Source: a virus. From it: DNA of 61,875 bases. A model generated the notes under the pieces. It did no database searches. It saw only the letters and a program-made list of their open reading frames with translations, and was not told the origin of the DNA. Numbering within the stretch: the first letter of the stretch is position 1; every line of letters starts with the position of its first letter. The position numbers and the translations under genes were made by a program. The stretch spans positions 1 to 61,875 of the IMG/VR virus record IMGVR_UViG_3300005827_000088; one strand, given 5' to 3'. Of this stretch, positions 4,203 to 60,779 are shown piece by piece.

Positions 4203-4724
4203 CTACTCAAACGCCGACGAGAACGCGGCGCGGGCACATTCTGGATGGTACATACGCTTGGCCTCCATGTACGCGCTGTGGGCTTCTTCTTTTGTGTCAA
4301 AAGAGCCAAGAGTGAGTTCTCTGCCCCCGATCTTGATTTGCGCTCTCCACTTCCTGTCGGTTTTGCTCCACGATGCGCCGCGAAGGCCGCTTTTGCTGTT
4401 CACGTTTGGGGCAACCACATTCCTTTGGTTCCCCCTGTTGGACATATCGCGCAAGTTAGATATCCGGTTATCATCGCGGACACCGTTCACATGGTCAACA
4501 AACTGCGCAGGGAAGCTTCCATGCACATACATCCACGCCAGCCTGTGAGCCTTGTAGCTCTTTTTCTTTATGGTGATGATTGTGTATCCTTCGTCGTTAG
4601 GACACCCCGCGACCTTTCCGGCCATACTGATTGCCCCGTAGTTGCGCTTCCAGGTGAACACCCCGGTGTCTGGACAATAGTCCAGTATGGACACCAGGTC
4701 GTTGTGGGTAAGTGTGTAGTCCAT
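4203..4724 (-). CDS. HNH endonuclease with AP2 DNA-binding domain
   Basis: 173 residues. The HNH core is visible as HRLAWMYVHG, then FVDHVNG and DNRISNLR (about 60-92). It is followed by an AP2-type DNA-binding domain, GLRGASW to LGSFDTKEEAHSAY (about 113-155). This is the usual layout of phage free-standing homing endonucleases, which cut DNA and spread by repair. The gene is less GC-rich than its neighbours, consistent with recent arrival. It sits tightly between operon genes without disrupting them. A second enzyme of the same type lies at 55035-55547. Confidence 0.92.
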   Translation of the reverse strand: MDYTLTHNDLVSILDYCPDTGVFTWKRNYGAISMAGKVAGCPNDEGYTIITIKKKSYKAHRLAWMYVHGSFPAQFVDHVNGVRDDNRISNLRDMSNRGNQRNVVAPNVNSKSGLRGASWSKTDRKWRAQIKIGGRELTLGSFDTKEEAHSAYMEAKRMYHPECARAAFSSAFE

Positions 4725-15901: not shown

Positions 15902-18900
15902 CTATTCAGCTTCTAAGTCCTTCTTCAACTGCTCCACCTGCTGCGGGGTCACAGTGATGGTGTGGCGCTTCATACCTTCGGTGTAGGCCTTGTGGTACAG
16001 CACCACATTCCGGTACATCTGGTCCTCGGTCTTCTTCAGCATCTCCACACGGCGCCGGCGCGCTTCGTTCGTGTAGTCCGGGTTGGCCTTCGTCTCCTCG
16101 ATCGCCTCGCGGATCTTGGCCGTCGTCACCCTCGTCTTGTGGATCGCGGCCTTCAGGGATACCGCAGCGTAAGCCTCCACATCGTTCTCGGGCAGCTTGT
16201 TCGGGTCATAGTCCTTGCGGTAGATCGACCGCTTGATCTCCTTGAACTCCTCGCCCGACAGCTTCGAGATCTCCATGAACTGCTTGTAGTTCGTGCGCGG
16301 GTCGCGCGCCACGGTGAAGTCCACGCCCAGGCTCTTGATGGTCGCCGTCAGGCCATCCTCCTCGCCCTGCAGCCAGCGCAGCATCTGGCCGACCTGCAGG
16401 GGCTGGGCGTCGCGAATGTTCGCCATGAAGATGGCCGGGAACTGAGAGATGTCCCTGGGGTTCTCGTCGCGCGTGCCCTTGACCAGCGAGAGCGAGCTCT
16501 TGCGGTCAGGATGCTGGACGCTCTTCTTCAGGTCGCTCACGCTCTTGTACGGACGGTCGCGCCAGTCCTGGCCGCTGATGTACGGGGTGATGACGCGCAC
16601 CAGCGGGCTGCCCTTGGCCGACAGGAACCGGCCGAGTTCGAACAGGCGCAGGGGGGCGATCATGAAGCCCGGGAGGTTGAACATGTAGCGCGTACCAGGG
16701 TCGATGTCGATCGGCTCCAGGCCCATGCTCTCGCGCATCTGGTTGACCTTGCGGTACAGACGCGTCACGTCGACCATGGCCCAGCGCAGCCTGGCAGCTG
16801 TGGGCAGGTCGCTCATCTGCTCGCGGTACATCTGGAACGGACCCTCCTCGGAGTCTCCGTTGATGAGCACCTGCGCCAGAAGCGTGGCCGCGGCCGCCGC
16901 GAGCAGTTGCTTCGCCAGGAACACGCGGTAGAACGAATCCCGGCCGGGGGGCGGAGGCATCTCGCCCAAGACCTTGGCGATGACCTTGTCCATGCCCGGG
17001 ATGGCCGCGAACGCAGGCTTCAGCTGGGTGATGGCCCAGTCAGGCGCGAGCATGATGAGGTGCAGGAACTTCGTCAGGTCCGGGTCGCGCCCGGCACGGC
17101 CCAGGTGCTGGCCGCCGAACGCGGTATTTGCGGCGTCCGCCACGATCTCGGCGATCTTGTCGACGTCAGGGGTCCTGCCGCGGGCGATCTCGTGCCGCAA
17201 CTGGTGCATGAAGTAGGTGTAGCCCCACTGGGCCTTGAAGCCAGCGTCGATGGTGGCAAAGAGGAAGTGCTCCGAACGGGAGCGCAGGATCTTCCCCACG
17301 GCTACGGCGTCCGCGGCCTTCTGGGAACCCATGGCGCGGATAAGCGTCTCGAAGATGCCCATGGCCTTGGTCATGTTGTGCCCGGTCATGTCGGCCATGG
17401 TCGGGAAGGTCATGCCCTTGCCCACGAGCTTCTGGATGACGGGGTTGCGTTCCTCGATGAGCTCCAGGCCGCTCAGGATGGCCTTGCGCCAGGACACGGA
17501 GTTCTTGACGCCGCGCAGCATGCCCACGATCCGCTTGGCCGCAGCCTTCTCAGCGACGGCTGTCGGGCGCCCCTTGGCGTCCAGCACGGCCGATCCGTAG
17601 ACCAGGGACCCCAGGATGTCGTGGGGGCCGCCGAAGGTCCAGGAGCGCATCAGGCTCTGGTGATGGAAGAAGTCGCCCAGGAGCATCCATGGCTTGAGCG
17701 TGCCGTTCAGGTACGTCAGGCTCTTGCCCAGGGGCTTGCTGAAGAACTTCCCGGCCTGCGAGGCGGTCATCAGGTTGATGGCGTTCGCGATGGCCGGAGG
17801 GGCGTAGAAGGGCACCTTTTCGAACACGTTCAGGTTCTCGCGGTACTCGACGCGCGCGTCAGTCAGCTGGTCAGCGTAGAGCCTGGCGTCGGCTTCGTTG
17901 TCGAATACGGCCGCGGCGCGCTTGCCCTGGCCGGCGAAGACCGCCCAGGTGACCTCGGGCTGCGTGACGAACAGGCGCCGGGAGTAGTTCCCGATGACGT
18001 CGTTCTTGGCCGCCAGGGTGTCGTTCAGGCCAGGATTGTCACGGATGACCGTCTTCACCGACGCCGTCGGTCTCCACACCTTCAGGGCGGGGGAGCGCAG
18101 CGGAAGCCAGTCGCCGGGGTTCTTCGTCGAGAGCACGCCCACGGCCATGCCGTCCTCGAGGAAGCGTGTGGTCGATGCAATCTTGACCGCGTCGGTCGTG
18201 ATCTCTTTCCAGGAGTTCGTGATGCCGCGGACCTCTGGAGCGAGTTCGTAGCCGTCCTGCATCGCGTCGAGCAGCGTGGGATACTTGCGCCGCATCAGGC
18301 CGGAGGAGAAGGACCGCACCGGGCTGCCGGACGCGCTCGGGGCCCCGGACGATTCCACGGGGCGGTCGTCGGGCGGCGTGAGCTTGCGGAACACATAGTC
18401 CTTGATCGGCTGGCCCTTGAGCTTGCCCAGGCGCTGGAACTCCAGGGTCGTGATGCGGAAGGCCGCTTCCATGTCCTTGTCGACGAAGTCGCGCTGGGCC
18501 GGGGTCAGGTTCTGGGCCTGCTCCAGGTCGCGCAGGAACTCCTGCAGGCGCAACTTGCGGTCACCGCTCCGCTTGCGCAGTTCGGTGGCAGCCCAGGCCT
18601 TGAAGTCGCGGATGCGGTCAGCTGCGGGCATTGGATTTTTGACGTGCGCGGCGTCGCTGTTCTTCAGGTCGCGGTAGATCAGCATGGCCATGTCCAGGCG
18701 CCGGGCCTTGACGGAGTCGTGCGAGACGCCGGCCAGGTCCTGGACCTTCTTCTGGAGATTCTTGAGGTTGACGTTCACGTCGAGCATGGCCCGGTCGTAG
18801 AGCTCGTGCACCTGCAGGGCGAAGGTGCGTTCACCCTCGGTCATGCCCTTCAGTGGGTTCTTGAAGATGGAGAACTGCACCTGGCCCAGGTTTCCGGCCA

Positions 18901-21900
18901 TGTCCGGACGCGTGCGCTGGACACGCTCGCGAAGCGTTTCGCGGTGCTCGCGGTTCAGGGCCTCGTTGACCCTGCGGTCTGCCCTCTCGAAACGCTTGCT
19001 CATGCGGTGTGCACGATTGATGAAGGCCCTGGTCTCGGCGTCCGTCCACTTCAAGGTGTGGCCGAACTTCTCCATGACCTTGCGCAGGAAGTCGCGCACG
19101 GCGGCCACGAAGCGGTCATACCAGCTGCCCTTCTGGTTGGCTTGGCGGGCGAACCACTCCTCGGTCGCCCGGGCACGCCCGTGGCGCGTCTCCAGGTCGA
19201 ACATCCCCCTGTAGTCGCCATTCGCCAGTTCGCGCACGTCGTCTCGGTTGGCTTCGTAGGCCTTGTTCAGGATGCCGTCGATGCGCTCGTTGGCCAGCTT
19301 GAAGCTGCCACCCATGGAGTTGGCGATGTCACGGCGCCACGCATCCACACCGCGATGCAGGTTCTCGTGCATGGCCCCGTCCAGGACGGCCAGGGCTACG
19401 TCCTCACGCCTGAGCATGCGGTCGGCCAGGATGTACATCTTCTTGGTCTGGGGGTCGTAGAGCGCCTCGACCTGGCTGGTGTCCATGGCGCGCTGAATGC
19501 CCATGGAGATCTCTGCCGGCAGGTCGATCCAGGTCGGCACGACCTCCACCATGGTGTGGGGGAACTTGGCCTTCGCGATCTTGTCTACCTCGGCCTGGAC
19601 GTCGGCTACGGTCAGCGTACCCTTCTTTCCCGCTTCGGTCCGGCCCATAGAACTGCTGGGCCTCTGGGTGATGTATGAGGTGCGCTCGACGATCTCGGCA
19701 TCGTCCATGCCTGTCTCAAGCAGGGATTGGCGCATTTCGTCTTCGGTCATCGGCTCGCCGTCAGCCGGATATTTTGCTTCCCATTCCGCACTGCCAGGAA
19801 TCAAGTCGGTGCTCGGAGTATTGAAAGGACCGTCTATCCACTTCCCGTCGGGAGTCTCGTAGAAGCGCATGTCGTCCGCTGCCACAGTCCGGAGACCTTG
19901 CTTCTTCGGTTCCAGGTAGGGCATCCTGTCCGTAATCATCGGGCGGGCTACGGACGGCCACTGGTTTTGGATGGAATCAGCATAGGTTTCGGCCTGCTTT
20001 CTGGTCGGGAAGTAGTCTCCGAGATCTGATGCGTCGACGAAGAAGCGCTTCTTCTGGGCACCCAGTTCTGTAGCGTGATCAGCAACGAAGTCTTCGTAGG
20101 CGACCTTCAGGCCCAGCTTTGACAGTTTCACCGGGTTCGAACGCTTTACGTAGAACGCTGCGATGTCGTCGTTGCTGTAGCCGTTGATGATGCCCAGGCT
20201 GATCGGGGTCTTGGCACTACCCTCAAAGGGCAGATCTTTGCCCGTCGCCTTGTGCACTGTACCGCGTTCGGCCATGGTAACAAATTCATCGAAGGTGGGC
20301 ATCTTCTTGAATATGCCCATGCGACCGCCGTGCAGTAGGGTCAGCCTTTTTTCACCCACTTCCCGCCGACTTTCTTGAAGCCCCGCTTCTCCCAGGACAT
20401 TCCGGCCGCCAACCGCGACAGGCCCTTCGGCTGCGCCTGTTCTTCCGCCAGCTGGCTCGACTCCTCGGGGCGGTACCCGGCTTGCGTCAACATCCGGCCC
20501 AGGGCCTCCGGAGGCAGCATCCCCGCCTTCTCGTACACGGTCGAGATCTCCTGCAATGGATTCGATTTCATCAGCGAACTCCTTGTAGAATTTAGTCGCC
20601 TTGGCTTCCATCGTCGCCAGGCGCAGGTGCCCGAGCAGCATGCTCTGGCGCGCCAACTCAGAGGTGAAACTATCGGAGTGATTGGATTCACGGTTGTGCA
20701 CGTTCTCGTGCAGCAGGGTGTGGACTGACGCCGACCCAAGGATGCGCTCCCTGGATTCGCCGGATTCGACGAGGGCCTTGTACTCATCGGTCTGGATGAG
20801 CGGCTTGTTATTCCACTCACCTTTGGTCATCATGGTGAGCGGGTTGATCGCGATAATCTTCCCCTCTCCAGTCAATCCGGACGGCGCGTGCCATCCATAG
20901 ACCGTATTGTCCAGGGTGATCATCAGCTTTGTGTTCGCGCCAAGGTTCGCGCTGTCGATCATCGCCTTCCAGGTGGAGAGCAGCTTCCCGTAGGATGCAA
21001 AGAACTTTTCATGATTTTCCACCACCTCGCGCGCGCCCTCGACGTCCGGGTACGAGGCCTTGGGGATCAGCACTGGAGTCCCACCCATCACTGGAGCCTT
21101 GGCGATCATCTCGCGGAACTCGGCCACGCGCTCGTCGGTCGCGTTTTTATTGAGCTTCTCTACGTAGTCCTTAATGACCTTGGCGATCTTGTCGCCGACT
21201 CCGGACATCACCACGGTCCGGTTCTTCAGGAACGGGTATTGCCCATGCTCAGGTTCGTGGGTCTTGGTGAAGTCAATCGCCACGCTGAAGTCTGGCTTGA
21301 TGTCGGCTCCAGGTATTCCGATGCCGTTGATGTAGTCGTACTGATCCTGCTTGAGCGCCGGAAGCGGCATACCCTTGCTGTAGACCTGGGCATGGATGAT
21401 GAACTGTCCTCCGAACATCTTCCTTGCAGGCAAGTCGCTCTTAACGAAGTGTACGGTGGCCCTGTTTTCTCCGTCGACGATCTCCACTGAAGGCGTGACT
21501 TTGGGCATGTCGCTCAGGAGGGTTGACTGGTATTCCTTGACCCTGGCGAACATCTTTTCGCCGTTCTCGTCGGCCGGCATCCAGTCGTTGTACCCGTAGT
21601 CGCTCGAACCCTTTTCGGAGTAGTCGTTGATCCCATGAGCAGTGACTTTCAGATTCTTGGTGCGCAGGCCCTTCGCGTATGTCAGCATGGCTGACTCGAA
21701 TGTGCTGGCGTCGTCGTAGTAGATGCCCTCTTCGGATACCCCGGTAGGCATCGTCGCCACGAACATGGTCCCGCGTTCTCCATCCAGGGCGTCCCTGGTG
21801 ATGACGGGGAAATCCCCATCCATGAGTTCGTCGCGGGTTGCCGTAATCTCGGTCGTCTTGCCGCCCTTGGTGGTCCTGACGAACACGTTCTCGGGGTAGA

Positions 21901-24900
21901 ACAGGAAAGCGACCTTAGCCATGCCATAGCCGCCGACGTTGTCTGTCCCGCCCTTGCCCTTGGCGCCGATGGCCAGGAACTTCGTCTTGACGTCCTTGGC
22001 CGTCATGCCAATGCCGTTGTCCTTGATGCCGACCTTGAACGTCTTGTCCTCAGTGCTGCGGATATCGAGAGCTACCTCGACATGCGCATCCTTGGGCCAC
22101 TTGGCATCAATGAGCGAGTCGATGGAGTTCTGGAACAGTTCGCTCACGACGGTGCGCGCCGGGTTCTGGTTCAGGATGTCCTTGCTCAGGATGCGCTTGA
22201 TGAGGCGCGGATCGGTGACGACCTTGGCCCTGCTGGTCTTGGAGAACTGCAGCTGATGTTCGAACTCCAGCTTCCCGTCAACCTCGTGGAATGCCACGCG
22301 GCCGCCTGGGACATCCTGGAAGTAGACCAGGCCGCCGTAGGGCGAGGCTTCCATGTCGTAGCCGTCGCGGCCGTATGCCACACCCTCAGCCATGGCTCGG
22401 GCCAGCGCGACGCGCTCCGGGCCTGATACGCTCGCCCCGGACCGTGCCAGGTCGGCCAGGGCTTCCGGGCTTTCCAGGGCCGACTGGACGGTGGGGACTT
22501 CGGGCTTGCGCTCCGCAGGCGCGCTGGGGGCCTCGTAGCCGCCCATGATGTCTTCGATCACCACACCTTCGGCCGGCGCGTCGAAGTCGAAGGCCTCGAT
22601 GTCGGTGCCCATGCTTGGGATCTTCCCGCTGACCACCGCACCCATGTCCTGCATGCGGCCGCCGACCTTCGCCGCTATGGTGCGCTCGAAGTCGTGGTCG
22701 AGGAACAGCCAGCGCACTTCGGACGGCTTCAGCATGCCCAGGCGCGTCACGCGGCCCAGGACCTGCTTCATCACGGTCGCGGTCCAGGGCATGTTCAGGC
22801 CGATCAGCACACGCTCCGGGTCGCCCGGGCGCCTGGAGTGCAGGGACAGGCCCGTGCCGCCTTTCGCCATGGTCGCCACGAGCAGGGGCTTCTTGTTGTC
22901 CAGCCACTGATCGAGATCCGCATTGGCCGCGTTCTCCGTGCGGTCCCCGGTGAAGATGGCGGTCTTGTCTGCGCCAACTCCATTGACGATGCGGGCCACG
23001 GTGCTCTCCAGCGACTCGTCCAGCCCGGCCTCGTGCAGGGCCTGGGCAACAGCCATCTGGAAGCGCGAGTACGGAGGCTTGCCGGCGTCGCCGCCCATGG
23101 CAGACTGCTCGGCAGCCCAGTCGCGCATGACCTCGGCCATGCCCGGGTAGTCCTTCCCGCTGATCTCTTTCTTAGCCCTGGTCTCGACGAAGATCACGGC
23201 CTGCTTGCCCTGGGCGATGACGTCCTTGGCCTCGGCCACGGCCGCGTCGACCTTGGCGTCCTCCATGATGCGCTTGAGCGTGTTCGTCATGTACCCGGCC
23301 AAGTTGCGCCTGAGCGTGCGGTCCGCCCCAGCGTCCTCGATGGCACGCATCATGGCCTCAGAGAAGTTGTCTGCCAGGGCGACGTTCGCGTCCGTAGGGG
23401 GCACGCTCTTGAGTTCGGTCGTCACCATACCCGGCTCGAGCTTCATCTCGCGCTGGGCCAGCATGCCCTGCTTCTCCAGCCACTGCCTGGCGGCCATGGC
23501 GTTCTCGTTCTGCTTCTGGCGCTCGGCCGGGGTCTGCCCGCGTTCCCATTCAAGGATCTGCTTCTCGCGGCCGCCCTTGATGCGGATCTTGCGCTGGCCG
23601 GCGCCGAACGCCAGGGCGAAGTCGCTGAACGGCGTTCCGCTGATGGCGCGCCCCAGCCCGGTCATTCCTTCGAGCTGATCGAACACGCCGCTCGCTGCGA
23701 TGTACCCCATCTGCGTCGGGTTCTCAAAAGGTGTGGCGGACGCCATGATGTTGAACTTGGCGCTCTTCATGTACTTCTGGCCCAGGTCGGCCCGGGCGGC
23801 TCCGCTCTCTTCGCCGGCGTCGGAGGTGTTCTTGACAGAGTGGCCCTCGTCCCAGGCGATGACGGCCCCGTCGATCTTGATGTCGGAGACCTTCTTGCCC
23901 GCGTGGATCTGGCTCATGTCGGTGTAGGTGATGAACTGCAGGCGGTCATTCAGGCCGAACGGTTCGATGTCGGCCTTGATCTGTTCGATCAGGCGGCGGT
24001 TCTGGGTCACCCAGACGAGCGGTCCCACATGGTTGCGGGCTATCTCCTTGAGTGCGCCGGCGATGACGAAGGTCTTGCCCATGCCGGGGTCGCTGGCCAG
24101 GACGAAGGCGTTCTTGCCGGTTTCGAATGCGGACTTGATCTTTCCGATGTCCGCGACCTGAGCGTCCAGGACATCCTGCGGGATGGCCCCTTCGCCCTTC
24201 TGGATGAGGGATCTCGTCTGCTTCCCAACCAGGTTTTGAGGATATTCAGGAGCGATGCTCGGGAACAGGTCGAGCTTCTGGCGCAGGGCCTTGATCTGGA
24301 TGCCGATGCCCTCGCCGGCCAGGCCTCGACCGCCGACCTTGGTTGGCTCGGCTTCGGGCTTCGGGTTCAGCTTTCCCTTGAAGTCTTCGTACTTCGCGTC
24401 TCTGGCGGAGTTCGCCTGCTCAACAGCTGCAGCAAGAGCGGCCGTGGGATCACCGTCAAACGCACGCCATACCTTGCCGCCGAACTTGACGCCGGGCAGC
24501 GCCTTGATGGCGTCTTTGTTGTCGTAGGTCTTGCCGGAAATCTCCCAGTAGGGCTTGCCGGTCTTCTGCGAAACCTTCTCGGTAACGACCAGGCCGGCGT
24601 CCTTGAGCGTCTTGGACACGACGGGCTTGGGCTTCTGCGGTTCGGCCGCGGGCTTGACGACGCCGGGATCCTTGGCCGGGGCGACAGGGGGCTTCACCTC
24701 GGCCTTGCCCTTCAGCTTGAGCCACTGGTCAGGCGTCTTGACTCTCACCTCATCAAGGGTGAGCTTGCCGTCGGTGTAGGCCTGGGCCACGGCATCGTCG
24801 TACTCGGCCTTCTTGGCATTCCAGGCCTTGAGGTCGCCGCTCTTGACTTCCTTGCCGCCGACGATCTGTGGCGGACTGGGCTTCGGCCCGGCGAACTCGC

Positions 24901-27900
24901 GCAGGGTCATCTCCCAAGGCTCGCGCAGATCCTCTTCGGTCAGGTCCAGGACCGGCTCCTCTTCCTTGGGCAAGGGAACGTCCTTTTCCTTAACTTGCGT
25001 CTCACCTACGGAAACTTTCGGCTCTTGCGTCTCACTTTCAGGCTTTTCCGAGACGCTATCTTCGACCTGGCCCATGGCCTCCTTGTAACTCCTGGGTGCA
25101 CGCTCCTGGGTCTTGTCGTAGTCGCTCATCACGCTGTCTATGATCTTCTGCAGGCCGGTGCGGTCGATTTCGATGCCCGGCATGGTCGGCCGGCTGGTCA
25201 ACTCGCGCAGGGCCTCGGCGTAGCCCTTCCAGGCCGCGGCGAACTCGCGCGGGGTGAAGGTCACCAGCGCGCGGAACTGTTCGGTGACGGTCTTGTTCCC
25301 GCGCAGATCCATGACGTCGGGCATCATGCTCGGCTGCTTCAGGTAGAAGTCCGGCTCGTACTTCCTGGCCGCGCCCTTGTTCTTGTTCATCCAGGCCTGT
25401 TTCTGGGCATTGTAGTCCAGGAACAGCTTGATGACGTCGGACATGGTCTGGCTGACCCAGTTCTCGCCCATGGCCTTGGCATACGCCAGGTGCGGCAGGG
25501 CGAAGTCGAACGTCTTGAGCTCGTCGGCGTTGGCCCGGCGGAAGCGCTGGAGCAGATCGTTGTCGGGGACGACGTAGCCGCGCACGGCGGCCTCGATGGT
25601 GTCCTTACCGTCAGGGGTGAGCTTGCCATCGACGAGGTACTGCGCCCTGTTCTGCAGGTCTAGCACGCCGTCTGTTTCCAGGCCCGGCACGAGTTTCTGG
25701 CTCGCGTGTGGAGAGTCCAGATATCCGCGCAGGGTGTCGTAGCCGGACAGTCCGCTGGCGAACTCCGAGATGGTCTTCTTGGACAGGCCCTTGGCCGCCG
25801 CCACACCTTTGGAGATCTTGTCCTGGCCGGTCATGGCCGGCTTGTTCAGCACGCCGGAGATGCGTCCGAGCTCGCGTGCGTCCTTCTCTCCCAGGTTGAA
25901 GTCGAGCGCGCGCACCAGAACGGGGTGCTTGAAGCGGCCGACGTCCTCCGGATTCAGGCCGAACGCCGCAGCGTCCTCCTTCATGGCGTCGATGTACTGC
26001 TGGTAGCGATCCGGATGCTTGTCGGCCAGGATGTCCAGGACCATCTTGCGGCTGTTGCCGCCCAGGACATAGCCGTCGCGAGTGATAACGCTCGGCCCAG
26101 TCTCGGCCGTAGGCCCGGTGTTGACCAGGTGGCTCGGGTCGAACTTCGCCACGCGGGCGTGCACCTGATCCTGGTGCGTCTGGTCCGTCGCATACGGGCG
26201 ATCCTGCACGCCGGCAGGATAGTCCGGGTTGTCCCGGAACTGTTCCAGAGGATTGTGGCTGGCCTTCAGGTCGCCAAGCTCCCGCAGTTCGTAGTGCACG
26301 GGGAACTTCTCGCCCTTGACTCCGGAGATCGCAGCTACATGCTTGCGCTTTCCTCGGACGGCTCCGTCGGGAGGTCCGGGGACGACGTCTCCTCCGGCTG
26401 CGGATTCGCTCCCAGCGGGCTGGGCGCCCCCAGCCTGGACCGGAGCATCGACTCGGTCAGCGCCCTCGGGTCGCCCGACCGCAGGCCCGACCGGAGCCTG
26501 GACACGTCCTTCAGGTCCTGGGGCTTGCCCGACGGTTTCCACTGGGGCAGGCTGCCCTTGCTGGACGACCGGCTGCTGCGGCCCAGGCCCGGCGACAATG
26601 GGTCCCTGTTCAGGAACGCCTCCGCCGAGGATGCTCCCGTCACCTGGTCTGCCGACTGGTTGAACTTCTGCTCCTGCTTCGCCCGGGCGTCCATTTCCTT
26701 CCGGTGCCAGGACTTCTTGGACTTGCTGCCCATTGGGTGCTCCTTCGCCCGGCATCACCGGGGCATTTGGCTGAGGACCTGTGGAACCTGACGGCTGCAT
26801 GTCCGGGCCAGGAAGAGCTTTCGGAGAGCCAGGCACGGGCGACATCAGGTCAAGAGAGGCATCCTTCGGAGGAGTCGGCTTCATGGATCCGCCCTGGCCA
26901 ACCTGCCAGCTGGGATCTGTCATCTCGCTCTCGAGAGTGCGCGAGTACGGCTCCACACCGAAGGCTTCCTTGAACTTGGCGAAATACGGACGGTCCGCGA
27001 TGCGCAGGGCCACCTCGGTCGGAAGCTCGATGCTCAAGCCTTCCCTGGTGGCCTTGATGATGTCGGCGTTCGTCAGACCGTAGTTCTTCATGTCCTGGAA
27101 CAGCGCGTAGTCTTCGGGACCCAGGCCGCCACGGGCTTCGGAACTGGCGCCCATGATGTCGCGCACCTTCGTCGGGGAGAAGTAGACCTTCTCGGGCACG
27201 CCAGTCGTCTTGACGATGTGCCGCGTCAGGGCGTTAATCTCATTCCCGCCGTACTGGCCCAGGGTGTGCGCGCCGGCCGCGGCCGCCTCGAACGCCGCGA
27301 ACAGTTTGATGTTCTCCCAGGCCGTCTGAGGGTCCTGGGGGAGCGAGTACAGCGCGCCGGTCGCGGCACCATGCAGTGCGCGCCCAGCCAGCTGGCCTTC
27401 GACGCTGGCCATGGCAGCCGGGCGGAGCAGGGAGAACGCAGGTTGTGCTGCCGCGCTCACCGCCATGCCGGACGGGATGAGCAGGGCCATGTCACCGGCC
27501 ATCTGTGCGGTACCGCGCATAGTGCCCAGCACGCCGATGCCGCCGACATTCGTCCGCGGGTCGATGCCAGTCTGCCCGGCCGTCTTGCTGGCGATGTCCT
27601 GATAGAACTTCGCCGTCGCGCTCTCGCGACCGAAGCCAGCCCCGGCCAGGCCGGCCATGGCGTCTTCGACGAGCATCTTGCCCATGTTCGCGACATGGTA
27701 GGCGTCGCGCAGCACGCTCCGCTTACCCTCCTCGTCGTACTCAGGAGCGATCTGCCCTGCAGGGCCTTCGGTGACGGAGTAGTCAGGGCCGAACGTCTTG
27801 GGGGTCTCGGTCAGGCTCTCGGCATTGGCCTTCTGCTTGGCCGCCTCCTGCCGTCCGACGTCCGCCGTGGCACCCATGATCGTGGGGCTGGCCGCAGCAC

Positions 27901-28366
27901 TACGCCCGGCCTCCTCGATATCCTGCTTGTCGCGGGCCGCCGGGCCGAACATGGCCGACTGCTCAGGGGTGAAACCGACCTCCCGAGCGTTGATCTTCGG
28001 AGTAGGCGCGGCGACCGGGGCCCTGGGGACGGGGTTGACCGGGGCCCGAACGTAGCCCGTGTCGCCCATGTTCACCGAGATGAAGTTCTGGATGATCTTG
28101 GCCTGACGGTCCGGCGGAAGCTGCTGGAACTCGGCGTCGGCCAGGTTCTTCTGGAAGTAGTTCGTGGCGATCTTGGTCTGGCGCTCGGGGGTCAGTTCAA
28201 GGAACGCCGGATCAGACTTCCAGGATGCGACGACCGGGTCGGTCGAAGGCGCGGGCTGTGGAGGCGCGGCCGCTTCCACACCATCGAGGGCGGAGGGCTT
28301 CGGCTCTGGAGCCGGGGCGTAGGGGTTGGCCTGGAGAAACGCAGAACCAGAAGCCATCTCAGCCAT
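15902..28366 (-). CDS. Giant polyvalent virion protein (4,154 codons)
   Basis: Domains in order (approximate residues): 1-130 helical repeats; 210-350 hydrophobic segments; 480-670 Pro/Gly-rich; 690-1100 DdrB/ParB-like with GGNSRK near 769; 1400-1900 SNF2-like helicase with GMGKT near 1425, DEGH near 1506, SATPF and GRVTRLGM near 1872; 2070-2300 HSP90/MORC-like GHKL ATPase with ELFQNSID, DNGIGM (about 2117) and GGYGMAKVA; HENVH near 2553; HENLH near 3000; and a C-terminal region of about 1,000 residues like other large polyvalent proteins. Such proteins are packaged and injected to act early in the host. It is last in the structural operon, starting at ATG 28366 after CGGAGG. Two internal stretches (26335-26733 and 20341-20571) look coding only in the +1 frame, so this may be a fusion of several genes, possibly through an indel. 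Confidence 0.8.
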   Translation of the reverse strand: MAEMASGSAFLQANPYAPAPEPKPSALDGVEAAAPPQPAPSTDPVVASWKSDPAFLELTPERQTKIATNYFQKNLADAEFQQLPPDRQAKIIQNFISVNMGDTGYVRAPVNPVPRAPVAAPTPKINAREVGFTPEQSAMFGPAARDKQDIEEAGRSAAASPTIMGATADVGRQEAAKQKANAESLTETPKTFGPDYSVTEGPAGQIAPEYDEEGKRSVLRDAYHVANMGKMLVEDAMAGLAGAGFGRESATAKFYQDIASKTAGQTGIDPRTNVGGIGVLGTMRGTAQMAGDMALLIPSGMAVSAAAQPAFSLLRPAAMASVEGQLAGRALHGAATGALYSLPQDPQTAWENIKLFAAFEAAAAGAHTLGQYGGNEINALTRHIVKTTGVPEKVYFSPTKVRDIMGASSEARGGLGPEDYALFQDMKNYGLTNADIIKATREGLSIELPTEVALRIADRPYFAKFKEAFGVEPYSRTLESEMTDPSWQVGQGGSMKPTPPKDASLDLMSPVPGSPKALPGPDMQPSGSTGPQPNAPVMPGEGAPNGQQVQEVLAPEGNGRPGEAGAEVQPVGRPGDGSILGGGVPEQGPIVAGPGPQQPVVQQGQPAPVETVGQAPGPEGRVQAPVGPAVGRPEGADRVDAPVQAGGAQPAGSESAAGGDVVPGPPDGAVRGKRKHVAAISGVKGEKFPVHYELRELGDLKASHNPLEQFRDNPDYPAGVQDRPYATDQTHQDQVHARVAKFDPSHLVNTGPTAETGPSVITRDGYVLGGNSRKMVLDILADKHPDRYQQYIDAMKEDAAAFGLNPEDVGRFKHPVLVRALDFNLGEKDARELGRISGVLNKPAMTGQDKISKGVAAAKGLSKKTISEFASGLSGYDTLRGYLDSPHASQKLVPGLETDGVLDLQNRAQYLVDGKLTPDGKDTIEAAVRGYVVPDNDLLQRFRRANADELKTFDFALPHLAYAKAMGENWVSQTMSDVIKLFLDYNAQKQAWMNKNKGAARKYEPDFYLKQPSMMPDVMDLRGNKTVTEQFRALVTFTPREFAAAWKGYAEALRELTSRPTMPGIEIDRTGLQKIIDSVMSDYDKTQERAPRSYKEAMGQVEDSVSEKPESETQEPKVSVGETQVKEKDVPLPKEEEPVLDLTEEDLREPWEMTLREFAGPKPSPPQIVGGKEVKSGDLKAWNAKKAEYDDAVAQAYTDGKLTLDEVRVKTPDQWLKLKGKAEVKPPVAPAKDPGVVKPAAEPQKPKPVVSKTLKDAGLVVTEKVSQKTGKPYWEISGKTYDNKDAIKALPGVKFGGKVWRAFDGDPTAALAAAVEQANSARDAKYEDFKGKLNPKPEAEPTKVGGRGLAGEGIGIQIKALRQKLDLFPSIAPEYPQNLVGKQTRSLIQKGEGAIPQDVLDAQVADIGKIKSAFETGKNAFVLASDPGMGKTFVIAGALKEIARNHVGPLVWVTQNRRLIEQIKADIEPFGLNDRLQFITYTDMSQIHAGKKVSDIKIDGAVIAWDEGHSVKNTSDAGEESGAARADLGQKYMKSAKFNIMASATPFENPTQMGYIAASGVFDQLEGMTGLGRAISGTPFSDFALAFGAGQRKIRIKGGREKQILEWERGQTPAERQKQNENAMAARQWLEKQGMLAQREMKLEPGMVTTELKSVPPTDANVALADNFSEAMMRAIEDAGADRTLRRNLAGYMTNTLKRIMEDAKVDAAVAEAKDVIAQGKQAVIFVETRAKKEISGKDYPGMAEVMRDWAAEQSAMGGDAGKPPYSRFQMAVAQALHEAGLDESLESTVARIVNGVGADKTAIFTGDRTENAANADLDQWLDNKKPLLVATMAKGGTGLSLHSRRPGDPERVLIGLNMPWTATVMKQVLGRVTRLGMLKPSEVRWLFLDHDFERTIAAKVGGRMQDMGAVVSGKIPSMGTDIEAFDFDAPAEGVVIEDIMGGYEAPSAPAERKPEVPTVQSALESPEALADLARSGASVSGPERVALARAMAEGVAYGRDGYDMEASPYGGLVYFQDVPGGRVAFHEVDGKLEFEHQLQFSKTSRAKVVTDPRLIKRILSKDILNQNPARTVVSELFQNSIDSLIDAKWPKDAHVEVALDIRSTEDKTFKVGIKDNGIGMTAKDVKTKFLAIGAKGKGGTDNVGGYGMAKVAFLFYPENVFVRTTKGGKTTEITATRDELMDGDFPVITRDALDGERGTMFVATMPTGVSEEGIYYDDASTFESAMLTYAKGLRTKNLKVTAHGINDYSEKGSSDYGYNDWMPADENGEKMFARVKEYQSTLLSDMPKVTPSVEIVDGENRATVHFVKSDLPARKMFGGQFIIHAQVYSKGMPLPALKQDQYDYINGIGIPGADIKPDFSVAIDFTKTHEPEHGQYPFLKNRTVVMSGVGDKIAKVIKDYVEKLNKNATDERVAEFREMIAKAPVMGGTPVLIPKASYPDVEGAREVVENHEKFFASYGKLLSTWKAMIDSANLGANTKLMITLDNTVYGWHAPSGLTGEGKIIAINPLTMMTKGEWNNKPLIQTDEYKALVESGESRERILGSASVHTLLHENVHNRESNHSDSFTSELARQSMLLGHLRLATMEAKATKFYKEFADEIESIAGDLDRVREGGDAASGGPGPDVDASRVPPRGVEPAGGRTGAAEGPVAVGGRNVLGEAGLQESRREVGEKRLTLLHGGRMGIFKKMPTFDEFVTMAERGTVHKATGKDLPFEGSAKTPISLGIINGYSNDDIAAFYVKRSNPVKLSKLGLKVAYEDFVADHATELGAQKKRFFVDASDLGDYFPTRKQAETYADSIQNQWPSVARPMITDRMPYLEPKKQGLRTVAADDMRFYETPDGKWIDGPFNTPSTDLIPGSAEWEAKYPADGEPMTEDEMRQSLLETGMDDAEIVERTSYITQRPSSSMGRTEAGKKGTLTVADVQAEVDKIAKAKFPHTMVEVVPTWIDLPAEISMGIQRAMDTSQVEALYDPQTKKMYILADRMLRREDVALAVLDGAMHENLHRGVDAWRRDIANSMGGSFKLANERIDGILNKAYEANRDDVRELANGDYRGMFDLETRHGRARATEEWFARQANQKGSWYDRFVAAVRDFLRKVMEKFGHTLKWTDAETRAFINRAHRMSKRFERADRRVNEALNREHRETLRERVQRTRPDMAGNLGQVQFSIFKNPLKGMTEGERTFALQVHELYDRAMLDVNVNLKNLQKKVQDLAGVSHDSVKARRLDMAMLIYRDLKNSDAAHVKNPMPAADRIRDFKAWAATELRKRSGDRKLRLQEFLRDLEQAQNLTPAQRDFVDKDMEAAFRITTLEFQRLGKLKGQPIKDYVFRKLTPPDDRPVESSGAPSASGSPVRSFSSGLMRRKYPTLLDAMQDGYELAPEVRGITNSWKEITTDAVKIASTTRFLEDGMAVGVLSTKNPGDWLPLRSPALKVWRPTASVKTVIRDNPGLNDTLAAKNDVIGNYSRRLFVTQPEVTWAVFAGQGKRAAAVFDNEADARLYADQLTDARVEYRENLNVFEKVPFYAPPAIANAINLMTASQAGKFFSKPLGKSLTYLNGTLKPWMLLGDFFHHQSLMRSWTFGGPHDILGSLVYGSAVLDAKGRPTAVAEKAAAKRIVGMLRGVKNSVSWRKAILSGLELIEERNPVIQKLVGKGMTFPTMADMTGHNMTKAMGIFETLIRAMGSQKAADAVAVGKILRSRSEHFLFATIDAGFKAQWGYTYFMHQLRHEIARGRTPDVDKIAEIVADAANTAFGGQHLGRAGRDPDLTKFLHLIMLAPDWAITQLKPAFAAIPGMDKVIAKVLGEMPPPPGRDSFYRVFLAKQLLAAAAATLLAQVLINGDSEEGPFQMYREQMSDLPTAARLRWAMVDVTRLYRKVNQMRESMGLEPIDIDPGTRYMFNLPGFMIAPLRLFELGRFLSAKGSPLVRVITPYISGQDWRDRPYKSVSDLKKSVQHPDRKSSLSLVKGTRDENPRDISQFPAIFMANIRDAQPLQVGQMLRWLQGEEDGLTATIKSLGVDFTVARDPRTNYKQFMEISKLSGEEFKEIKRSIYRKDYDPNKLPENDVEAYAAVSLKAAIHKTRVTTAKIREAIEETKANPDYTNEARRRRVEMLKKTEDQMYRNVVLYHKAYTEGMKRHTITVTPQQVEQLKKDLEAE
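20341..20571 (-). CDS. +1-frame gene nested in the giant ORF
   Basis: 76 residues from ATG 20571, with AAGGAG seven bases upstream. Sequence such as EISTVYEKAGMLPPEALGRM and a basic end (GFKKVGGKWVKKG) looks like real protein, and its codons end mostly in G or C. The enclosing frame here is Gly/Pro/Arg-rich with no such bias. It could be a separate protein, or the true C-terminus of the upstream part reached by a +1 shift near 20560; the join EIESI to QEISTVYEKAG reads smoothly. Confidence 0.55.
   Translation of the reverse strand: MKSNPLQEISTVYEKAGMLPPEALGRMLTQAGYRPEESSQLAEEQAQPKGLSRLAAGMSWEKRGFKKVGGKWVKKG
26335..26733 (-). CDS. +1-frame gene nested in the giant ORF
   Basis: 132 residues from ATG 26733, with GAAGGAG seven bases upstream. 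The N-terminus is basic and helical (MGSKSKKSWHRKEMDARAKQ) and the remainder is Ser/Pro-rich and probably disordered. Roughly nine in ten codons end in G or C. The enclosing frame reads as a Pro/Gly/Gln/Val linker with weak bias. It may be a small virion or scaffolding-like protein. Family unknown. Confidence 0.55.
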   Translation of the reverse strand: MGSKSKKSWHRKEMDARAKQEQKFNQSADQVTGASSAEAFLNRDPLSPGLGRSSRSSSKGSLPQWKPSGKPQDLKDVSRLRSGLRSGDPRALTESMLRSRLGAPSPLGANPQPEETSSPDLPTEPSEESASM

Positions 28367-58424: not shown

Positions 58425-60779
58425 TCACCCCACTTTCTCCCCCTCAGACTTCCCACCTGTGGAGACGACCTTCTTGGCGATGTACCTCTGCCACCGCTCC
58501 TGATTGGGCAGCAAGTAGGCTCTGGTCGTGGTCTTGACGATGGCGTCGCCCTCCGTTCTCGTGTAGGCGATGAGCTTTGGCTGCGCGCCCCACTGGACGA
58601 GCGCCGCGGCGACGGCCTTCTGCGAAAGAAGCTGGAGGTCGCGGACATTGTCCCGGAGGGCCGAGAGGATGATGTACATCTCCCCGCCCTTAACGAATGG
58701 CTCACGGCGTTCGACGGCATAGGCGACATCTTCCCTGACGCGCTGCCCGATCCCTTGCAGGTAGCCCTCCACGCAGTTGTCCATGATGCCCTGGTCAGTG
58801 CCATCCGTCCCGACCAGCACCACCTCCCTGGTGATGTGCAGCGCCTTGAAGATGCTGTCCCATCCTTCGATCTTGCGTGGGAAATAGACCCCGGCATCCG
58901 CCACCTTCAGCGCAAGTTTGCTGTATGTGTGGACATTTTCAATTCCACCCAGGGTAACGGCTTCCCCCTCAACGTGCAGCACGTAGGAACTCGGCTCGGC
59001 CTTGAAGCACACGAGTCTCTCTACCTTGGCACCCAAACGGTCGCCGATCTCGCGCATCAGGGCCTCTCGCTGCGTTTCCGACTCACCCTGGGCCTCGGCA
59101 GCCTGGAACTCCGCCAAAAGCCTCTCAATGGCACTGGAGCGATTTTTTGATGGCTTCGGTCCGCGCTTTGGAGCTATGCCAAGTTCCTCCTGGAGCGCGC
59201 GCTTCGCCTCACGCTCGGCCGCAGTGGCATTCTTTCGTGCCTCCCGGCGTTCGAGGACAGCTTCTTTGTGCCGTTCCTCGTCCATCGTGTGGCTGACATC
59301 CTTGGCCGCTTCGTTGCGCAGCTTCTCCTCTGCTCGGTCCTGCTCACTGCGCGCCCGGGCTTCCTTGGCGGTCCTGATGGTTCGCTCGATGTAGTCGGCC
59401 CGGGAACCCTTAGCCACCTCGTCCTGTGTCTTGCCGTGGCGGACGCGGAACTGCCTGATGATCTCGGCGATGACCCGGTCCTCGACGTCGAGGTTGACGC
59501 AGAAGAGGGCCAGGGCGCCGTCGTAGGACGACAATGAATTGTCATTGAACCCGCGCCGGCGGTCCCATGTGGCCTCGAACTTCGGAATGGTGCAGAGGTT
59601 GTCGATGGTGGCGTCGACTATCTGAAGAAGCCCAGGGCCTCCGCCGTCAGGTGCGTCTTCTCCCAGATGACCTTCGCGTCCCGCTCGTCCGTCCCCGGGG
59701 GAACCTGGACCTTGACGACTGCCAGCTTCTTGCCGAAGGCCGTGATCGGGACCACCACAATGGCCCCGCCCTCCCTCATCGAGCGCCTCCTGGCGACCCT
59801 GATCAGGTCGTCCAGCTTCGCCAGGGCGGTGTCCATCGGCACCTCCTGTGGAGTGAGCAGGTCGTCCCCCCTGATGTTCGCCATCGCCAGGTCCTGGACG
59901 GGTCTCTCCTTCCGCAGGTGATCCATTCTCCAGCCGCGATCCACGATCGGCTCCCCGTCCACGTCCATCGCCTGATCCATGCCCATCTCGCGCTCCTTGC
60001 GTGCCCAGCAGCCCGGTGCCCTGGGGTTTGAGTGTTGCTTCGGCGCCCCGCACGCCTTCCATAACCTCCTCGACAGAAAACCGCGGCCCCCCGTCCATCA
60101 GAATGCTGGTTGGCCGCGCGAGATCGCCGGTACCTTTCTTGACGTTCCAGGTTCCAGGCAGCCGCATGACGCGTGCGAGGTCGAAGACGCTGTCGGTGGT
60201 GAGGCCGCGTGCCTGGCAGTGGGCGAGGAGAATTTTGTTCCAGGACTCTGTGAGGGCGGCGGCGACCGGGTGGAACATGATGTCTGAGCGCCCCATGAGT
60301 ATGTCTGAGACCTCGCCCATGGGACGAAGTGTGACGGGCTGGTCGAAGAGCCACCAGCCCTGGATGCCGCCGCCCGAGTGGACGACGAGCGTTGGGGGCA
60401 GGGGCATGAGGTGGAGCAGGGCGAGGGCCTCGTCCACAGTTTTTGGGAGGTTGGCGGCTTTCTTGTGGCAGCCGTCGTCGACGTCCATATCGAGCCAGAG
60501 GCCGGGGATGGCGACGATGTCGGCGGCTTTGCAGCGCTGGTGTGAGCCGAAGGCGCGGTCGGCGAGTCCGCATCCGAGGTAGATGTCGGCGTCCTTGTGT
60601 GGGACGATGCGCTTGAGGAGGTTCGTTGCTTCGGCGACGGACTTGCACCAGTAGGAGCGTTTCTCGGCCTTGGCTCCGTTTGCCGGGTCGCTGGGCGAGG
60701 GCCTGCGTGTCCAGATGAGGAGGTGGTTTCCGGCGGGAATGTCGGCTGGCCAGAGTTGCTGGAGGAAGTTCTGGTACAT
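58425..60779 (-). CDS. DNA primase (AEP-like), with a nested frame in the middle
   Basis: 784 residues. N-terminal primase: LWLDMDVDDG, VVHSGGGIQGWWLF and DLARVMRLPGTWNV are the acidic pair, the Ser/Gly loop and a late conserved block of archaeo-eukaryotic-type primases. The C-terminal part (FEATWDRRRGF, RVRHGKTQ) matches the primase C-terminal domain of similar phage proteins, followed by a long helical tail. Between them (about 265-390) the frame reads as Gly/Asp/Arg-rich filler, while the +1 frame (59618-59986) is clearly coding-like. So the primase may be an expanded, fused or split gene. Confidence 0.78.
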   Translation of the reverse strand: MYQNFLQQLWPADIPAGNHLLIWTRRPSPSDPANGAKAEKRSYWCKSVAEATNLLKRIVPHKDADIYLGCGLADRAFGSHQRCKAADIVAIPGLWLDMDVDDGCHKKAANLPKTVDEALALLHLMPLPPTLVVHSGGGIQGWWLFDQPVTLRPMGEVSDILMGRSDIMFHPVAAALTESWNKILLAHCQARGLTTDSVFDLARVMRLPGTWNVKKGTGDLARPTSILMDGGPRFSVEEVMEGVRGAEATLKPQGTGLLGTQGARDGHGSGDGRGRGADRGSRLENGSPAEGETRPGPGDGEHQGGRPAHSTGGADGHRPGEAGRPDQGRQEALDEGGRGHCGGPDHGLRQEAGSRQGPGSPGDGRAGREGHLGEDAPDGGGPGLLQIVDATIDNLCTIPKFEATWDRRRGFNDNSLSSYDGALALFCVNLDVEDRVIAEIIRQFRVRHGKTQDEVAKGSRADYIERTIRTAKEARARSEQDRAEEKLRNEAAKDVSHTMDEERHKEAVLERREARKNATAAEREAKRALQEELGIAPKRGPKPSKNRSSAIERLLAEFQAAEAQGESETQREALMREIGDRLGAKVERLVCFKAEPSSYVLHVEGEAVTLGGIENVHTYSKLALKVADAGVYFPRKIEGWDSIFKALHITREVVLVGTDGTDQGIMDNCVEGYLQGIGQRVREDVAYAVERREPFVKGGEMYIILSALRDNVRDLQLLSQKAVAAALVQWGAQPKLIAYTRTEGDAIVKTTTRAYLLPNQERWQRYIAKKVVSTGGKSEGEKVG
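59618..59986 (-). CDS. +1-frame gene nested in the primase ORF
   Basis: 122 residues from ATG 59986, with AAGGAG seven bases upstream. Good protein content such as LAKLDDLIRVARRRSMREGG, AFGKKLAVVKVQVPPG and a final HLTAEALGFF. Nearly every codon ends in G or C, unlike the primase frame there. No family is recognised. It may be a real, independently translated small gene, or the primase frame may be broken by indels. Confidence 0.65.
   Translation of the reverse strand: MGMDQAMDVDGEPIVDRGWRMDHLRKERPVQDLAMANIRGDDLLTPQEVPMDTALAKLDDLIRVARRRSMREGGAIVVVPITAFGKKLAVVKVQVPPGTDERDAKVIWEKTHLTAEALGFFR

Follow-up and report, generated by a model that had tools for sequence, protein, structure and literature searches.

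The largest gene of the phage described here encloses, in a different reading frame, a short and complete ORF. The locus raises the question whether the giant gene also gives rise to a small internal protein, or whether the giant ORF is a fusion that extends across a smaller gene. The initial annotation had put these forward as alternatives; in our analysis both hold together, and codon usage marks the nested frame as the established coding frame over this stretch. The window, ie the whole stretch of DNA that was analysed, is an uncultivated virus record of 61,875 bases. It derives from a podovirus-like phage of approximately 62 kb, with a capsid protein 50% identical to that of Rhizobium phage RHph_TM3_14A and a phrog_511 protein of a type that Bcep22-like phages also carry.

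The giant gene and its nested ORFs

The giant ORF occupies positions 15902-28366 on the minus strand and encodes 4154 amino acids. It is a DdrB/DarB-like large polyvalent protein, very large and multidomain, with a ddrB-ParB domain (Pfam PF18763, E 2.6e-14; giant residues 684-820, positions 25907-26317, minus strand), a helicase domain (Helicase_C_4) and an HATPase domain (HATPase_c_3). In size and genome position it resembles P1 DdrB and the DarB-like antirestriction giants of Bcep22-like podophages (Lessievirus BcepIL02 gp70, JC1 gp69, Erwinia PEp14 and Klebsiella LASTA). The ddrB-ParB domain is common to the window giant and the relatives of P1 DdrB, and the Bcep22-like giants also hold +1 nested genes, but BLAST detected no similarity between those giants and the window giant outside the ParB domain. 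No relative of the giant spanning the linker described below was found, only the ParB and helicase parts being shared with other giants, and the Rhizobium phages nearest by capsid (50% identity) had no detectable similarity to it. The giant protein of JC1 has been detected in virions by mass spectrometry (PMC9144972).

Nested gene 1 lies at 26335-26733 on the minus strand, wholly within the giant ORF and in its +1 frame. It runs for 132 codons from an ATG at 26733 to a TAG ending at 26335, in a frame bounded on both sides by stops approximately 139 codons apart. The ATG, the codon count, the TAG stop and the frame had been described in the initial annotation, which left the strand unstated; it had also placed the Shine-Dalgarno-like GAAGGAG seven bases from the ATG, and the motif is present (26740-26746, minus strand) at a spacing of six bases. 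Over the same stretch the giant frame encodes a low-complexity Pro/Gly/Ala/Gln linker (26326-26896, minus strand), which reads NGQQVQEVLAPEGNGRPGEAG...PQQPVVQQGQPAPVETVGQAPGPEG and ends at the start of the ddrB-ParB domain, directly downstream of nested gene 1. The earlier view of the enclosing frame as a mere Pro/Gly/Gln linker was borne out, with alanine added.

The predicted 132-residue product has a basic helical N-terminus and an acidic C-terminus which is probably disordered, and its single-sequence structure model was poor (pLDDT 65). It contains no cysteine and is therefore not a lipoprotein spanin, since the lipobox cysteine of an embedded Rz1 is lacking. No homologue was found in 50,697 phage records, IMG/VR, Pfam or PHROGs, and none at a meaningful level in 389 genomes; the single match among 385 genomes had an E-value of 7.8e-5 at 31% identity.

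A second ORF of the same kind, nested gene 2 (20341-20571, minus strand; 76 codons), starts with ATG; it too is in the giant's +1 frame, and it lies in the linker that follows an HExxH-containing region. A Shine-Dalgarno-like AAGGAG (20579-20584, minus strand) stands seven bases upstream of its ATG. The collections searched held no homologue of it.

Codon usage across the giant frame

With synonymous codons simulated for the giant's own residues at normal codon use, the +1 frame was open over the length of nested gene 1 with a probability of 0.55. An ORF expected 55% of the time means little by itself, and ORF length was discarded as evidence. The GC content at third codon positions (GC3) of the +1 frame, taken alone, was also discarded, as the Pro, Gly, Ala and Gln codons of the linker, all with G or C at their first position, partly force it. 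That composition does not force the drop in GC3 of the giant frame. Inside nested gene 1 the giant frame has a GC3 of 0.57, compared to 0.86 elsewhere, and a loss of this size was reached in none of 20,000 synonymous resamplings. The nested frame has a GC3 of 0.92, in agreement with the initial remark that nearly all of its codons end in G or C.

Codon preference beyond GC3 gave the same picture. The mean log RSCU of nested gene 1 was 0.374, against 0.381 (sd 0.127) for normal genes of the phage, and that of the giant frame over the same stretch was -0.163. Elsewhere in the giant, the +1 frame averaged -0.277 and did not rise above -0.008. The coding signature of nested gene 1 exceeds what the host frame predicts.

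A three-frame Viterbi segmentation, unsupervised and based on codon usage alone, returned exactly two alternate-frame segments in the giant, at 26348-26746 and 20354-20557, and none in 60 synonymous shuffles. Both ends of the first segment fall within 13 bases of the ends of the nested gene 1 ORF. Two switches of frame, starting at a ribosome site and ATG and ending at a stop, have the appearance of nested genes.

Two further observations were made in the window. Between 26746 and 26896, ie 100-150 bases before the nested ATG, the GC3 of the giant frame is already 0.50-0.60 with no other frame open, and part of the linker is therefore codon-relaxed for another reason. At 59618-59986 (minus strand) there is a third +1-frame ORF, of 122 codons and with AAGGAG before its ATG, inside an ORF of 784 amino acids (58425-60779). 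Its coding signature is stronger than that of the enclosing ORF (Viterbi gain of 82), and Pfam gave no match for either.

Nested genes in the giants of other phages

The same signature was sought in giant ORF pieces of at least 1200 amino acids with a GC3 of at least 0.6; it cannot be scored in genomes of low GC3. Rates were estimated from loci fetched either by the unrelated phrog_511 gene or by the ParB domain, and loci fetched with a nested family as query were left out because they had been selected for having that family. In the phrog_511-fetched loci, 35 segments were found in the +1 frame, distributed over 23 of 48 giant ORF pieces, and none in the +2 frame. ORFs of 500-1199 amino acids from these loci gave 1 segment in 98,407 codons. 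The rate was lower in the ParB-fetched loci, where 4 of 32 giants had a segment, and synonymous shuffles of the full giant set gave no segments. ATG was the start in 36 of the 40 unbiased segments, at a median distance of 6 bases from the start of the segment, and 37 of the 40 had a Shine-Dalgarno-like core, which precedes only 19.7% of +1-frame ATGs generally. Several mutually unrelated nested families are present among the giants, and that of JC1 carries a member of one of them, family b.

Two of the loci deserve separate description. The IMG/VR contig nearest to the window by ParB domain (L180, 35% identity) has a 113-codon +1 nested ORF at 4364-4705, upstream of its ParB domain and unrelated in sequence to those of the window. 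In Pseudomonas phage Itty13 (L010, 26486-37744) the GenBank record has three long antisense ORFs with a GC1 of 0.87-0.94; the real giant ORF, of more than 4100 amino acids, is on the opposite strand.

The largest family, a, has the core motif MNLxNW...HWKE...EAWEMxREkYLFPPEE. Its 82 distinct proteins come from phages and prophages of Erwinia, Klebsiella, Pseudomonas, Agrobacterium, Ochrobactrum, Sinorhizobium, Vibrio, Microcystis and others. Seventy-three lie in the +1 frame of a stop-free giant ORF, being counted as nested because that frame is open (6 of the 82 have stops in it), and 72 of the 73 have a ribosome site. Of 2628 pairs compared, 99.5% had a higher similarity in the nested protein than in the giant-frame peptide that overlaps it. 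Substitutions were most frequent at the third nested codon position (0.49, compared to 0.40 and 0.38 at the other two), which was the most changed position in 89% of pairs. Judged from these substitutions, the nested frame is the constrained one in family a. Families b and c had the same pattern of conservation, and in all three the nested frame is under purifying selection. The comparison with homologous phages proposed in the initial annotation, made here on the class rather than on the exact gene, came out opposite to a case in which the enclosing frame is conserved and the nested frame is not; the conservation applies to families a, b and c, nested gene 1 itself having no homologue that we found.

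The giant frame was open in all 42 clusters of family a (less than 70% identity, not fully independent of one another), each with a median chance of 0.033 given the nested residues and local codon usage. On this calculation the giant frame appears to be kept open far more than chance allows. In the remaining same-strand frame the median number of stops is 6. At six loci (L267 from Corticibacter, L269, L270, L283, L285 and L288) the giant frame contains stops and the small gene stands alone. Family a is predicted with confidence to be helical (core pLDDT about 97), and the fold had no significant match in the PDB. A Pfam TnpV match of one member was below its cut-off and was not relied on. In the 21 GenBank records with family a, only the giant or another overlapping product is annotated there. 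Family a and nested gene 1 are alike in length (100-130 codons), in the Shine-Dalgarno-ATG start, in the +1 frame and in their location in a linker inside a giant phage ORF. They share no sequence similarity (tblastn searches with the family against the window and with nested gene 1 against every locus), and the same holds for nested gene 2 in the search of the window.

In Sinorhizobium phage PBC5 (L012, 26155-32712) the giant's N-terminal portion passes into the family a frame, and the annotated orf33 ends with the nested protein. The join reflects either a frameshift in the deposited sequence or a genuine in-frame fusion, and PHROG 938 seems to have inherited the frame join.

Origin of the nested genes and alternative readings

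A giant of one related phage (L035) contains, at 16472-17026, an HNH endonuclease gene (phrog_3377, E 7.9e-56) in its +1 frame, with its own ribosome site and with the giant frame open throughout. The stretch has a different sequence in L041 and L042, the flanks of which are about 95% similar, and is absent in L047. L035 shows that a giant can run out of frame through a gene of foreign origin. An HNH endonuclease gene is also nested in the +1 frame of another giant, around its codons 1037-1143 (L082).

The genetic code accounts for the phase. The first codon position of the giant coincides with the third position of a +1 gene, and in GC-rich genomes that position is nearly always G or C; as all stops start with T, they are rare in the giant over such a gene. 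Stops abound in the other same-strand phase, hence the bias to +1 rather than +2, and the Gly/Ala/Arg/Pro make-up of the linkers follows from the same phase relation. We lean towards the view that giant polyvalent ORFs grow by tunnelling through whole neighbouring or mobile genes in this near-stop-free phase, both proteins staying translated.

In the window, nested gene 1 is very probably a genuine small gene that has its own start and through which the giant tunnels out of frame as a disordered linker. This reading builds on the ORF, its ribosome site, the codon-usage switch, and the recurrence and conservation of the class. Ribosomes would start internally on the late mRNA at the nested Shine-Dalgarno site and produce the 132-residue protein. 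The giant would also be translated, its out-of-frame reading of the small gene providing a disordered Gly/Pro/Ala/Gln linker which joins the N-terminal module to the ddrB-ParB/helicase module. The codon usage, together with the family a members that stand alone, indicates that the small gene is probably older than the giant frame in this stretch; the giant would have been fused over it, whether it was already there or had been inserted, by way of the nearly stop-free phase. As a guess from co-location, the product may be a small late protein that cooperates with the virion-borne giant or acts alongside it.

The alternative that survives best, which we consider unlikely, is that a recently captured gene is now dead, that only the giant is translated and that the codon footprint is a fossil. 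A small gene that died recently would retain its footprint for a time, and comparison of L035 with its relatives suggests a recent arrival of its nested HNH gene; nor was a homologue found which would show selection on the window copy. Against this, both nested genes of the window retain an intact ribosome site, ATG and stop, and in family a the nested frame has been conserved over deep divergence. It is less probable still that only the giant is coding, with odd linker codons that reflect its composition or weakened selection, and with an incidental +1 ORF. Neither the resemblance of nested codon usage to that of normal genes, which goes beyond mere GC-richness, nor the coincidence of the switch points with a Shine-Dalgarno-ATG and a stop at two places is expected from this, and synonymous shuffles never reproduced the pattern, even if an open +1 frame is common by chance and the relaxation begins somewhat upstream of the nested ATG. 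That two compensating sequencing or assembly indels have moved the giant's own sequence into the +1 frame is very improbable, despite the uncultivated record being without reads and the joining of both frames in PBC5 orf33, as the nested frame is bounded by stops and starts with a Shine-Dalgarno motif and ATG, two separate complete ORFs with ribosome sites occur in one giant, and the arrangement is found again in many phages that were sequenced independently.

Phages are known to have nested genes, most of them isolated examples such as Rz1 in Rz. As with embedded Rz1 spanins and other overprinted genes, the small gene lies here wholly inside another, in the +1 frame and with its own ribosome site. 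The host gene differs, being a giant virion protein, and one giant can hold several unrelated nested genes. Codon usage suggests that the small gene came first, which would reverse the order of classic overprinting. An embedded Rz1 is present in JC1 too, and the description of that phage does not mention a nested gene in the giant (PMC9144972); the account of polyvalent proteins by Iyer et al. (2017) does not touch on overlapping or nested genes (PMC5512222). The literature searched, in large part open-access papers, contained no description of the class.

The giants of these virions form a class with conserved genes nested in their linkers, several per giant, which are missing from the GenBank records checked. 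The finding explains where some of the disordered linker sequence in polyvalent proteins comes from and offers a route by which giant ORFs can fuse across intervening genes, and the phase rule predicts where further nested genes are located. If tunnelling is the mechanism, giant phage genes would contain a systematic layer of unannotated nested genes, often several per giant. The gene content assigned to well-studied laboratory phages such as BcepIL02 and JC1 changes with the nested genes found here.
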